A stretch of DNA of 64,000 nt from Rhizobium sp. FKY42 (lineage in GTDB: Bacteria > Pseudomonadota > Alphaproteobacteria > Rhizobiales > Rhizobiaceae). This document shows, one piece after another, positions 51,683 through 55,461 of this stretch (positions within the stretch are counted from its first letter, which is position 1; each line of letters starts with the position of its first letter). A program made the position numbers and the translations under genes. The stretch is from NCBI RefSeq assembly GCF_005222835.1, contig NZ_STGA01000044.1, positions 124,001-188,000 of the forward strand. Reading direction: 5' to 3'. Under the pieces are notes generated by a model. That model did not search any database. It was given only the letters and a program-made list of their open reading frames with translations, and was not told where the DNA came from.

Positions 51683-52039
51683 TCAGCTGCCTCGATAGGT
51701 TGAATAGCCGTAAGGCGAGATCAGCAGTGGCACATGGTAATGGCCACTTTCGTCCGCGATGCCGAAACGGATGGGAATGACATCCAGAAATGCGGGTTCC
51801 GCAAGGATGGCTCCGGAACGGCGCAGATAGTCACCGGCATGGAAGACAAGTTCATAGGTTCCCTTGCGGAACGTCTCGCCAACCAGAATCGGACCGCCAT
51901 CCACCCGCCCATCGGAATTGGTGATGACGGTCTTCAAATGGTGACGCGCCTCACCTTGCAGATGGAAAAGGTCGATCGTTAGACCTTCCGCCGGTTTGCC
52001 AAGGGCAGTATCAAGAACATGGGTGGTCAATCCGGTCAT
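51683..52039 (-). CDS. uraH: 5-Hydroxyisourate hydrolase
   Basis: The 118-residue transthyretin-like protein hydrolyses 5-hydroxyisourate (the PuuD product) to OHCU. The family marks are the N-terminal [17 protein letters not shown] with the catalytic His, and the C-terminal [18 protein letters not shown], where YRGS is diagnostic. The ATG overlaps the allA stop by 4 bp (ATGA). It acts in the cytosol. Confidence 0.95.
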
Positions 52040-52536
52040 AGGCTGGGCTCGCTGATGCTGTAGGGTTGATCAAAAAAGAACTCTTCCAGATTGTTGCCCG
52101 GCCCGTCGCGGTCAACGACCAGAAAATCGGAAACCTCACCGATCGTCATCAGCGGGTGATGCCACACATTGCGGCGATAGTTCACACCCTGGTCACCGTG
52201 CGCCAGAAACACCTGCGGCTCCCCCGGTCTGCCTTCATCATCCTCGGAGACGACGACGAGATAGGCACGACCATTCAAGGGTGAAAAGCTCTGGCTGCCG
52301 TACGGGTGGCGCTCCATCATCGTGAGCGTATACGGGAAGGGCCGAGGCTGGCCTCGGAAGATATTGATGATGACACGAGCGCCTTCCCCCGAAATGTCCG
52401 CTTCTGCCAGTGCATGAAACCGCTCCGTATTGCCACCATTGATGAACTTCATACGGGCGGGATCGGCCTCGATCACCTGACCGAAGGGCGCAAACGCGGC
52501 TTGAGTGAGCGGCTTGATGGGCAGGGTTCTGGACAT
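52036..52536 (-). CDS. allA: Ureidoglycolate lyase
   Basis: The 166-residue protein matches AllA in length and in [17 protein letters not shown] at the start and [28 protein letters not shown] near the end (quoted as [18 protein letters not shown]). The enzyme splits ureidoglycolate into glyoxylate and urea, the last step of the pathway seen here. Its stop overlaps the uraH start. The toxin-antitoxin pair lies directly upstream, with only 6 bp to the HEPN gene. Confidence 0.93.
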
Positions 52537-52542
52537 CTGGAA

Positions 52543-52911
52543 TTATTCACCTTGGGCATGGATATGGCGCAGAGCGCGAAGCTGGGCAAGGAGTTGGGGA
52601 ACGGTGCGGCTGGCAGCAACCCACAGCGCCTTGGGATCAAAATTCGAGAGATCCTGAAGTATGTGATTGCGAAGATCGACAAGTCCCGACAAGCCAAGAT
52701 CTGGATGGTCGGCCGCAAATTCCGGGTTCCGTTTGAGGATATCGGACGCCGCCCCTCCAATAATCATGAGATTCATGCTTATGGCACGCTGCTTGACGAT
52801 ATCGCTTCGAAAATCGTCCGCAGTCATATCGGCAATGAAGGCACCTGTGTCGACGCAAACCGGCGTCATCTGGTCAATCGTTTCCAGCAGACGCTCTTGA
52901 GCACGGCTCAT
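52543..52911 (-). CDS. HepT-type HEPN protein with degenerate active site
   Basis: The 122-residue helical protein is in a two-gene unit with the MntA-like nucleotidyltransferase and overlaps it by 4 bp. HepT toxins are HEPN RNases with the motif R-x4-H-x-Y, held inactive by MntA, which AMPylates the Tyr. Here the motif region reads LRNHILQDLSN: Arg81 is kept but His is Gln86 and Tyr is Leu88. The RNase centre and the AMPylation site are both lost. It is either an inactive relic or a divergent form with another role. The fold match (DUF86) is moderate. Confidence 0.7.
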   Translation of the reverse strand: MSRAQERLLETIDQMTPVCVDTGAFIADMTADDFRSDIVKQRAISMNLMIIGGAASDILKRNPEFAADHPDLGLSGLVDLRNHILQDLSNFDPKALWVAASRTVPQLLAQLRALRHIHAQGE

Positions 52912-53198
52912 ACCGCAACAGCCTCTGCCAGTACGCGATCCCGGACTCTCGGGCGAAGCCCCTTGCTGGTTGCAAGATCAACGCGCATCTGCAGCAGGTT
53001 CTCCAACTCGTGCTGAAGACCGCCAAGATCGAAAAGCGTGGTGTCCTCCAGTGTATCGACCAGAATATCCAGATCGCTGTCGTCGCGATCCTCACCGCGC
53101 GCAACAGAGCCGAAGATGCGAGGGTTCGCCAGCCGGTGGCGGGCGACGAGCGCCCGGATCGCCTCCCTGTTTTTCTCCAGCACTTCCGATGGGCGCAT
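52908..53198 (-). CDS. MntA-type nucleotidyltransferase antitoxin
   Basis: ATG 53198 (site AGGAG, 6 bp) gives 96 residues; an in-frame TTG at 53204 precedes it. The nucleotidyltransferase motif is intact: GSVARGEDRDDSDLDILVD, with GSVARG at 30-35 and the two metal Asp in SDLD at 41-44. MntA proteins transfer AMP to a HepT toxin's Tyr and thus neutralise it. The paired HEPN protein lacks that Tyr, so the antitoxin may have lost its substrate. The pair sits inside the purine operon between uraD and allA. Confidence 0.8.
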   Translation of the reverse strand: MRPSEVLEKNREAIRALVARHRLANPRIFGSVARGEDRDDSDLDILVDTLEDTTLFDLGGLQHELENLLQMRVDLATSKGLRPRVRDRVLAEAVAV

Positions 53199-53230: not shown

Positions 53231-53728
53231 TCATGCGGAAGGCAGCATGCTTTCAAGCCGCAGGAGTGCGATACGCTCCACCTGCCCGCAAGCAGTCGAA
53301 AACTCTTCTTCCCGACTGTTGTTCACCCGCTTCTCGAAAGCAGACAGAATATCGTGCCTGTTCAACCCCTTGACCGCAATGATGAAGGGAAAACCGAATT
53401 TCTGCGTATAAGCGTCGTTCAGCTCGGTGAAGCGGGCATGCTCTTCCGGCGAAAGGCGATCCAGGCCAGCGCCTGCCTGTTCTTTCCGGCTGTCTTCGGT
53501 CAGCTCACCCGCAATCGCCAGCCTGCCCGCGAGATCCGGGTGGGCGCGCAGGACGCCTAACCGCTCATCCTCGGATGCTACGCGAAACACCGCCACCAGC
53601 GCCGCATGAACCCGCTGCGAATTCAGGGTGTCGCCCCGCACCAGATCATCGTCAAAGGCCCGTTCAGCGATGAAGGGTGAATGTTCGAAAACACCGCCAA
53701 AGCGGTCGACAAAGTCTTCCCGTGTCAT
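53231..53728 (-). CDS. uraD: OHCU decarboxylase
   Basis: The 165-residue protein starts at ATG 53728 (MTREDFVDRFGGVFEHSPF). It decarboxylates OHCU to S-allantoin; the conserved LRAHPDLAGRL with catalytic His, LSPEEHARFTELNDAY, and FGFPFIIAVKG motifs are all present. The frame is open further up to 53797, but that part overlaps puuE. The ATG lies 3 bp from the puuE stop. The mntA-hepT pair interrupts the cluster downstream. Confidence 0.93.
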   Translation of the reverse strand: MTREDFVDRFGGVFEHSPFIAERAFDDDLVRGDTLNSQRVHAALVAVFRVASEDERLGVLRAHPDLAGRLAIAGELTEDSRKEQAGAGLDRLSPEEHARFTELNDAYTQKFGFPFIIAVKGLNRHDILSAFEKRVNNSREEEFSTACGQVERIALLRLESMLPSA

Positions 53729-53730
53729 GA

Positions 53731-54654
53731 TCAGATCGTGTCCGGCTTGTGGTGCTCGTGCCAATGGCGGGCAATCTCTATCCGCTTCGGGATCCATACC
53801 TTCTTGTGTTCGAGCACATATTCCATGAAGCGCCTCAGCGCGGCGATACGGCCCGGACGACCGACAAGGCGGCAGTGCAGACCGACGGACATCATCTTGG
53901 GCGCGCCCTCCTTGCCTTCCTGATAGAGCGTGTCGAACGTGTCCTTCAGGTAAGTATAGAACTGGTCGCCCGAATTGAAACCCTGCGGCGTGGCAAACCG
54001 CATGTCATTGGCATCCAGCGTGTAGGGGATGATGAGGAAAGGTTTGCCATCCACGCCTTTCACCCAGAACGGCAGATCGTCCGCATAACTGTCGGAGGAA
54101 TAGAGGAAGCCGCCCTCCTCCTGCACCAGCCGCAACGTGTTGATGGAGGGCTTGCCCTGATACATCCCATACGGACGCTCACCAGCAACTTCGGTGTGAA
54201 GCCGCACCGCATCCAGAATGTGCTGGCGCTCCAGTTCTTCCGGATAGTCCTTGTATTCGTGCCAGCGATAGCCGTGGCTGGCGATTTCCCAACCTGCCTC
54301 GTTCATGGCAGCAACCGCATCCGGGTTGCGCATCATGGCAAGCGTCACGCCATAGACCGTGCAGGGAACTTTCAGCTCCGTGAACAGGCGGTGCAGACGC
54401 CAGAAGCCGGCACGCGAACCATATTCATAGATGCTTTCCATGTTGAGATTGCGTTGTCCCGGCCAGGCTGCCGCCCCAACAATTTCTGAGAGAAGATTTT
54501 CCGACGCCGGATCGCCATCCAGAATGCAACTTTCGCCGCCTTCCTCGTAATTGATCACGAACTGGACCGCGATGCGCGCGCCACCCGGCCATTTCGGGTC
54601 CGGAATATTGCGGCCATAGCCAATGAGATTGCGCGGGTAAGTGTCTGCCACCAT
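53731..54654 (-). CDS. puuE: Allantoinase PuuE (polysaccharide deacetylase fold)
   Basis: The 307-residue enzyme opens the ring of allantoin to allantoate. It is a NodB-like PuuE, distinct from the amidohydrolase AllB. QFVINYEEGGESCILDGDP, EIASHGYRWHEYKDYPEE and VGLHCRLVGRPGRI are typical. The early Asp and the H-x4-H pair that bind metal are seen (ASHGYRWHEY). Site AAGGTGA precedes ATG 54654. It is the first gene of the minus-strand purine operon. Confidence 0.93.
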   Translation of the reverse strand: MVADTYPRNLIGYGRNIPDPKWPGGARIAVQFVINYEEGGESCILDGDPASENLLSEIVGAAAWPGQRNLNMESIYEYGSRAGFWRLHRLFTELKVPCTVYGVTLAMMRNPDAVAAMNEAGWEIASHGYRWHEYKDYPEELERQHILDAVRLHTEVAGERPYGMYQGKPSINTLRLVQEEGGFLYSSDSYADDLPFWVKGVDGKPFLIIPYTLDANDMRFATPQGFNSGDQFYTYLKDTFDTLYQEGKEGAPKMMSVGLHCRLVGRPGRIAALRRFMEYVLEHKKVWIPKRIEIARHWHEHHKPDTI

Positions 54655-54753: not shown

Positions 54754-55461
54754 TCAGGCAATCCGCCGCGCAGAGACACTGCCCAGAGGATGGAGCGAGT
54801 GTACCAGAAACGGCGCACCCGGTTCTGTCTCGACAAACAGCGCAAGATTGAACAGAACCTGCGGGCGCTGGAGAATGGGCTCGAAATAGCGCTTCAGCAC
54901 CTGTTCGAAGACCGGCATTTCCGCAGCCCCCACGGGGCCGGTCAGCGTCATGTGAAAACGGAACTCGTCCATCACATGCGGATGGCCAAACCGGTGCAGG
55001 TTGGAAAACTGCGATGCCGACAGGCGCTCCGTATCGACCCGATCCAGTTCCGCTTCCGAAAGCGGAGCCCGGAAAGAATCGAAATGCATCACGACGCTCG
55101 ATGCCAGATGGTTGAGGTCCGGGCATGGGCGATCGGGCACAAGCGCGAAACGGTTTCCAAGCCGCACAACTTCGAGACGCGGCAAAGGCACCGGCTGATG
55201 CTGACCCGTGAAATGCAGTAGGTGCCTGAGTAGCATGGGTTCGGTCATGCCATCGGCCAGCCGGAAGGGCGGCTTCAGCGTCGCGTGAAAGCCATAGCGA
55301 CGCGGCACCGCTGTGTTGAAGGCAATCTCGTGCAGGCCGAGTTCCCGGATGAACGGCAACTCCATGGCCTCACCGGAAAATGCATTTCGCCCAAGCCATT
55401 GCGATGCGGCAATGGTCAATGGATCTGCCGCCGTCGGCGTGAAATTAATGGCATACCGCAT
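54754..55461 (-). CDS. DUF1045 family protein (2H phosphoesterase-like)
   Basis: The 235-residue protein is a DUF1045 member, often annotated 'phosphonate metabolism protein'. Two H-x-T motifs typical of 2H phosphoesterases are present: FHATLKPP near residue 58 and FHMTLTGPV near residue 170. DUF1045 genes are frequent in phn clusters, but no phosphonate genes are near here. It may act on a 2',3'-cyclic or phosphodiester substrate; unproven. ATG 55461 follows GGAGG. Confidence 0.8.
   Translation of the reverse strand: MRYAINFTPTAADPLTIAASQWLGRNAFSGEAMELPFIRELGLHEIAFNTAVPRRYGFHATLKPPFRLADGMTEPMLLRHLLHFTGQHQPVPLPRLEVVRLGNRFALVPDRPCPDLNHLASSVVMHFDSFRAPLSEAELDRVDTERLSASQFSNLHRFGHPHVMDEFRFHMTLTGPVGAAEMPVFEQVLKRYFEPILQRPQVLFNLALFVETEPGAPFLVHSLHPLGSVSARRIA

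Follow-up and report, generated by a model that had tools for sequence, protein, structure and literature searches.

The pair of genes considered here lies in the window (i.e., the whole stretch of 64,000 nucleotides that was analysed) between uraD and allA, in a same-strand cluster of ureide genes which also holds puuE, a hydroxyisourate hydrolase gene and a calcineurin-type phosphoesterase gene and which, by inference, is an operon (Table 1). The mntA-like and hepT-like genes overlap by 4 bp (ATGA); mntA begins 32 bp after the uraD stop (53231) and hepT ends 6 bp ahead of the allA ATG (52536). A preliminary description had the pair inserted between uraD and allA; its position, strand and both distances stand, but the term inserted does not, since such a pair is what normally occupies this site in the genus. 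Upstream of puuE, the gene of a DUF1045 protein (54754-55461, minus strand) can be found, which also adjoins puuE in R. leguminosarum pSK03 (L088). A promoter and terminator scan gave a signal at chance level, and an Rfam scan gave no match.

Table 1. Features at and around the mntA-hepT pair, numbered from the first nucleotide of the window.
Feature	Position	Strand	Basis
hydroxyisourate hydrolase gene (homologue annotated uraH)	51683..52039	-	ORF, homologue annotation
allA, ureidoglycolate lyase, constant downstream neighbour	52036..52536	-	Pfam
hepT-like gene (predicted RNase-dead pseudo-HepT, 122 aa, no tyrosine)	52543..52911	-	ORF, Pfam, fold model
AAGGTGA in the hepT 3' end, candidate Shine-Dalgarno of allA, 10 nt before the allA ATG	52547..52553	-	
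degenerate RX4HXY motif, R81 N H I L Q86 D L88	52648..52671	-	residue count, profile alignment
mntA-like gene (minimal nucleotidyltransferase antitoxin, 96 aa)	52908..53198	-	ORF, Pfam/NCBIfam/PADLOC scans
intact GSX10DXD motif of MntA, residues 30-44	53067..53111	-	sequence reading; motif definition from PMC7641770
uraD, OHCU decarboxylase; likely ATG 53728, listed frame reaches 53797	53231..53728	-	Pfam
puuE, allantoinase (homologue annotated puuE)	53731..54654	-	ORF, homologue annotation

Families, motifs and predicted fold

The MntA-HepT organisation proposed in the preliminary description for the two overlapping genes is borne out by their Pfam matches, MntA to PF01909 (44.8 bits, cut-off 21) and HepT to the HepT-like family PF01934 (48.6 bits, cut-off 23.5); the neighbours match PF09349 and PF04115. 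Scores against the NCBIfam equivalogs lie below the cut-off of 60 bits, with 39.5 for MntA (NF047752) and 15.5 for HepT (NF047751, the window protein being scanned). Up to E 1, PF01934 is the only family matched by window HepT, and PF05168, the family of class II HEPN/MNT pairs, is not matched. Such class II pairs (PF05168/PF01909) also have an MNT motif beside a motif-less HEPN protein but, in sections of PMC7641770, PF05168 HEPNs keep a conserved Tyr, whereas the HEPN protein of the window belongs to PF01934, is nested in an RX4HXY family and has no Tyr.

In MntA, the published GSX10DXD motif is present as GS-x10-DLD, the antitoxin motif being intact as described earlier. Active HepT carries the motif RX4HXY, the Tyr of which is the AMP acceptor (PMC7641770, in part). 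Window HepT reads R81-x4-Q86-x-L88 at this place, and R81, Q86 and L88 align with R97, H102 and Y104 of Shewanella HepT (6m6u/5yep; profile alignment, E 0.004 and 1e-6), so that the replacement of both His and Tyr noticed beforehand holds by residue count and by alignment. The three nearest HepT homologues, found in other genomes and 53-64% identical, are also devoid of this His and Tyr; the loss is therefore not a sequencing error, and the idea that close homologues keep the motif while this copy is in error can be dismissed. All four members of this clade lack Tyr altogether, while at least one Tyr is found in every one of the 98 RX4HXY copies. AMPylation of window HepT at another Tyr, also envisaged earlier, is thus impossible.

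The AlphaFold2 model of window HepT is a helical bundle (pLDDT 88.9, pTM 0.81), for which the best Foldseek matches in the PDB are the HEPN toxins 7ae2/7ae6/7ae8/7ae9 (E 0.006-0.03, probability 1.00; no match reaches E 0.001), followed by HepT structures such as 6m6u (E 0.24, probability 0.99); the HEPN helical-bundle fold is hence predicted to be kept. With the known type VII systems (MntA-HepT of Shewanella oneidensis, SO_3165/SO_3166; HEPN-MNT 7ae2-7ae9), the pair shares the adjacent genes, the Pfam families, GSX10DXD and the predicted HEPN fold, but it differs from them by having neither RX4HXY nor a Tyr to AMPylate and by scores below the equivalog cut-offs. Judging from its sequence, we infer that window HepT is not an RNase toxin, and the word disarmed, as used hereafter, denotes a prediction.

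A resident locus with exchangeable alleles

A HepT relative was found in 56/57 genomes of the window's genus and in 147/148 genomes of a second genus of the family, 111 of these 147 being examined, which gives 167 genomes of two genera, one per species. The second genus is taken to be Rhizobium because the R. leguminosarum plasmid record L088 agrees with it in both arrangement and sequence type. In every locus examined (56 of the first genus, 111 of the second), allA directly follows the module, and uraD is found upstream of it in all of them except one locus at a contig end. In the exceptional genome of the first genus (G055), uraD and allA are about 95 bp apart with nothing between them, which indicates that the operon can manage without the module; for the second genus, the genome without a match is G455, an assembly of 82% completeness with no detectable AllA. 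AllA is also downstream in 10 further loci from six other genera of the family (618 bp away in L071). At the level of the order, relatives occur in 23/297 genomes, 5 within the window's family and 18 outside it, and AllA was not found within the 1.5 kb flanks of the order-level loci fetched from outside the family. The module does precede AllA in L207, a 'Rhizobiales bacterium' of which the family is not established. Relatives occur in 1416 plasmid records, all below 60% identity, and among the 40 plasmid matches listed only that of H1 overlaps an annotated ureidoglycolate lyase. Rows dropped before the counts were L010, L013, L017, L023, L025 and L029 (the longer L057-L062 from the same genomes being used instead), L063-L065 (duplicates of L089, L097 and L106) and the family matches without AllA, namely L073-L075, L078-L082 and L084-L086; loci from L199 onwards stand outside all counts.

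The module is a resident locus and not a chance insertion, and a type VII (MntA-HepT) locus has probably been located directly upstream of allA since before the two Rhizobiaceae genera diverged. HEPN/MNT genes in the uraD-allA operon of Rhizobiaceae were not described in the matches listed from the titles and abstract starts of openly licensed PMC papers. Seventeen loci of the two genera have an ORF of 340-341 aa between uraD and the module; an insert of about 1 kb with such an ORF, between uraD and the first module, was seen in L035, L142, L147 and 15 more loci and is absent from the window. The one ORF tested (L142:1086-2108) is an allantoicase by Pfam.

The module can be found in one or more copies and in various alleles. 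Two HepT copies occur in seven loci of the first genus and three in one, and two copies in 5/111 loci of the second. Before allA, L057 harbours three mntA-hepT pairs with differing HepT types, plus a truncated extra mntA, and in L159, L166, L173 and L192 two mntA genes are ahead of one hepT; the surplus antitoxin has no toxin of its own, which is what partial deletion of tandem modules would be expected to leave. In 44 single-pair loci of the window's genus, the mean protein identity is 0.78 for UraD, 0.71 for AllA and 0.45 for the HepT body, and HepT bodies are less than 50% identical in 51/83 locus pairs with close flanks and in 15/30 with very close flanks. MntA is more conserved in its N-terminal part (0.75) than in its C-terminal part (0.54), and it is the latter that varies most in step with the HepT type (Mantel r against HepT, 39 active pairs: 0.78 for the C-terminal part, 0.64 for the N-terminal part, 0.38 for UraD and 0.33 for AllA). 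Active RX4HXY alleles have been swapped between near-identical flanks; the window, L005 and L008 have the same flanks and three different alleles.

Regarding the window itself, its DNA compared with that of L008 is mostly 95-100% identical in mntA, 40-50% in hepT and 93% in the last 60 nt of hepT, and the HepT of L008 keeps RX4HXY and belongs to another type. In trees of 18 loci, MntA of the window clade, which comprises four species, falls with the type of L007/L008/L014/L016 (support 80/91), and its placement with L005/L006 is rejected (p-AU 1.9e-5). The HepT of the clade groups with L005/L006 (88/99.7; SH-aLRT 99 in a 148-row tree), its placement with the other allele type not being rejected (p-AU 0.093). 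MntA and HepT of the window thus seem to come from different allele types, for which the tree support is good, not decisive. Deletion or exchange may have brought together an antitoxin and a toxin from two different modules, and the toxin of a pair mismatched in this manner would have to be disarmed. The conserved, allele-swapping toxin-antitoxin locus, the recurrent disarming and the mismatch within the pair go beyond what the preliminary description foresaw.

Predicted disarming, antitoxin loss and selection

Among 190 full-length HepT copies (a count that excludes the short ORFs, two in L056 and one in L077), 98 have RX4HXY, all in loci with mntA, and no intact copy was found in a locus devoid of mntA, the 83 copies in such loci being all without the motif. 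When mntA is present, RX4HXY is kept in 98/107 copies, and the nine disarmed ones are the four of the window clade, L015 (in which the mntA motif is also broken), L059 copy 1, and L176, L181 and L184, which are placed among active relatives. As for the short ORFs, those of L056 are two hepT fragments of one broken gene and that of L077 is a 77-aa hepT frame, both loci being without mntA. An RX4HXY copy is held by 48/56 loci of the first genus and 28/111 of the second; a disarmed copy without mntA is the sole content of 3/56 and 80/111 loci, respectively. On a tree built with 8 of the 51 near-identical orphans (hepT without mntA) and with L056 excluded, at least six changes of motif state on well-supported branches and at least three changes of mntA presence can be counted, with three independent pairs, so that an association test is underpowered. 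Disarming, as predicted from the motif, recurs at the site and goes with antitoxin loss, and the window clade is the only well-supported disarmed clade of the tree still having mntA.

Of the 51 R. leguminosarum-type orphans, 50 are from as many of the 111 genomes and one is from the plasmid record L088; none of the R, H and Y is kept in them. A search for mntA remnants ahead of orphan hepT genes gave only weak matches (best E 0.05-0.35), from which no decay of mntA in place can be read. GSX10DXD is present in 112/115 MntA ORFs at the site, window included; several had been classed as broken with a strict regular expression, and the published motif clears all but three. In L012, and for one of the mntA genes of L198, mntA seems to be broken into two frames while the HepT has RX4HXY; assembly errors may account for this, or else these loci depart from the rule by which disarming of the toxin comes first.

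It can be asked whether window HepT is still a toxin, acting without RX4HXY by means of His83, a metal site or RNA binding and being neutralized by the binding of MntA. In sections of PMC11586414, E. coli is still arrested by the R98A and H103A mutants of a Legionella HEPN, which makes use of a Q44/E47 metal site, and some HEPN toxins without RX4HXY are mentioned in part of PMC3710099. MntA is intact and constrained, R81 and His83, two residues further, are invariant in 4/4 members of the clade, and the three nearest relatives keep Glu53, which is found in 90/98 active copies. However, the window protein has Gly at position 53, its MntA seems to be of another allele type, and the motif is missing too from all 83 copies of the mntA-less loci, which is what one would expect if toxicity depends on it. 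Such residual toxicity is consequently considered very unlikely.

Whether the ORF is under purifying selection, a question raised in the preliminary description, can be answered positively. For hepT of the window clade, omega, which rests on four divergent sequences, is 0.247 (lnL -1210.5 vs. -1243.9 at omega 1; 2 delta lnL 66.8), with 0.15 costing 8.1 and 0.35 costing 4.2 in 2 delta lnL, and with 0.244 and 0.275 obtained under the MG and F1X4 variants; for mntA of the same clade it is 0.084. In the 51 R. leguminosarum-type orphans, hepT has an omega of 0.087 (MG 0.085, F1X4 0.104; 0.06 costs 15.0 and 0.15 costs 36.8 in 2 delta lnL), to be compared with 0.102 for allA and 0.111 for uraD of the same loci. 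Orphans with His replaced by Gln or Glu (22 loci) give 0.268 (MG 0.209, F1X4 0.279) and a third orphan group (8 loci) 0.275. An omega of 1 is rejected in every group. The five active hepT types display 0.073-0.098, the omega of the window clade being 2.5-3.4 times as high, and allA and uraD of three disarmed groups 0.055-0.111; this within-locus comparison is the safer one since the deep active groups may be saturated at synonymous sites. On these estimates, purifying selection on window-clade hepT is relaxed but real.

A toxin pseudogene that decays slowly, MntA being a hitch-hiker refreshed by recombination, would be in line with this raised omega, with the dN/dS of the closest pair of the clade (L002-L003: 0.37 by NG86, 0.44 by ML) and with a pN/pS of 0.85 at codons 2-21, against 0.23-0.48 elsewhere in hepT. 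Nevertheless, decay is improbable considering that omega 1 is rejected, that the fold is predicted to be retained and that the hepT frames are open in 4/4 genomes of the clade, whereas all frames remained open in 0/200 runs of a rough neutral simulation for each disarmed group. Between the two outcomes initially proposed, a relic or a module with another function, the former is thus disfavoured by the omega of 0.247 and the open frames; the latter finds indirect support for the window copy and, with an omega of 0.087, strong support for the orphan HepT of the R. leguminosarum type.

The junction with allA brings in another explanation, in which the hepT frame is kept solely to couple the translation of allA by an embedded ribosome-binding site, the protein sequence being irrelevant. 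The last hepT ends at most 60 bp from allA in 177/178 loci, the terminal copies have a Gly-Glu C-terminus in 174/178 cases and a Shine-Dalgarno-like pattern in 143/178, and the commonest 3' ends of hepT in the 51 orphans have AAGGNGA just before allA. Orphan hepT starts with ATGA in 51/51 loci, with the uraD stop inside it in the 28 loci read, and from both junctions it is likely to be co-translated with the enzymes. Coupling alone would predict no amino-acid constraint, yet selection acts across the whole gene in the 51 orphans (pN/pS 0.08-0.29, strongest at codons 42-81). In addition, the Gly-Glu end is also kept by internal copies not adjoining allA (12/15; Shine-Dalgarno-like 9/15), and hepT is missing altogether from G055. 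It is therefore unlikely that hepT serves as a spacer only and, with an omega as low as those of allA and uraD, HepT of the 51 orphans is neither a relic nor a mere spacer.

Possible roles of the disarmed protein

The reason why chromosomes keep toxin-antitoxin genes is a long-standing question. At this single site, one finds pairs that are active and exchangeable, newly disarmed toxins whose antitoxin is intact, toxins disarmed long ago that still have an antitoxin (as in the window) or lack one, and a disarmed protein selected as strongly as its metabolic neighbours; having such stages side by side makes toxin domestication directly testable. The disarmed protein probably has a new job, seeing that its sequence is still carefully preserved in many Rhizobium species, and R. 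leguminosarum, a model symbiont, thereby gains a conserved operon protein.

The explanation that is favoured, with reasonable though not high confidence, is that the pair in the window is a disarmed allele of a type VII toxin-antitoxin locus which is resident at this site and recombines, and that the disarmed HEPN proteins of this locus are retained, with exaptation in Rhizobium. It starts from the observed occupancy of the same site, the shared loss of His and Tyr, the absence of any Tyr and the purifying selection on both genes. MntA would stay intact by being repeatedly exchanged with, or needed against, the active hepT alleles circulating at the site. For the MntA of the window, which has a low omega and for which no second HepT was found in the same genome (a single PF01934 match and a single MntA relative, at E 0.01), the favoured reason would be immunity against active alleles arriving by recombination. 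Retention of the hepT frame may have two causes, namely a non-catalytic role of the folded HEPN protein in the operon, through protein-protein contacts and not RNA cleavage, and the presence in the hepT 3' end of what is likely the ribosome-binding site of allA. In R. leguminosarum-type species, the process would be complete, with the antitoxin gone and the HEPN protein fixed under strong selection.

A bolder version of this exaptation, possible but tentative, is that toxins have been captured and domesticated by a metabolic operon more than once: in an exchangeable MntA-HepT cassette at the allA-proximal site of Rhizobiaceae, loss of the catalytic His would make the antitoxin dispensable, the protein could then become an acidic, protein-binding regulator or an assembly partner of ureide catabolism, and the window would be an intermediate with MntA as immunity. 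The mean net charge (K+R-D-E) is -5.2 for active copies, -6.2 for the window clade and -7.8, -7.8 and -9.8 for the orphan groups, and the more acidic charge of the orphans would point to a protein rather than an RNA partner. It can further be hypothesized that a non-catalytic acidic HEPN dimer controls the ureide operon in the manner of MtlR, through a partner such as a PTS phosphocarrier. MtlR, the mannitol operon repressor, belongs to a HEPN family of which a large fraction is probably inactive and, as described in part of PMC3710099, is an often motif-less HEPN protein encoded inside a catabolic operon, and it binds HPr through an acidic face (PMC6763467, in part), which would fit the orphans being more acidic than the active copies. 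This control mechanism is an analogy, however, and the charge shift is small in the window clade, so that it appears rather doubtful.

For the role of a disarmed HEPN protein in general, MtlR is the best precedent, though by analogy only; the locus of the window differs in that descent from a resident toxin is traceable at a single site. VBP, the VirD2-binding protein of Agrobacterium, likewise has a HEPN domain for dimerization and partner binding, but its NT and HEPN parts are fused in one chain and it acts in a different pathway (PMC3953389, in part). MtvT/MtvA, an inactive toxin-antitoxin pair with a regulatory role, is another case of an inactive toxin kept with its antitoxin, although that pair is of type II, plasmid-borne and promoter-binding (PMC11826091).

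Regarding defence, window HepT matches neither the PADLOC models nor, at E 0.01, phage records, whereas MntA matches PDC-S09 of PADLOC (E 2.6e-34), a candidate family only of anti-phage defence, so that an arms race with phages might lie behind the rapid turnover of active alleles.
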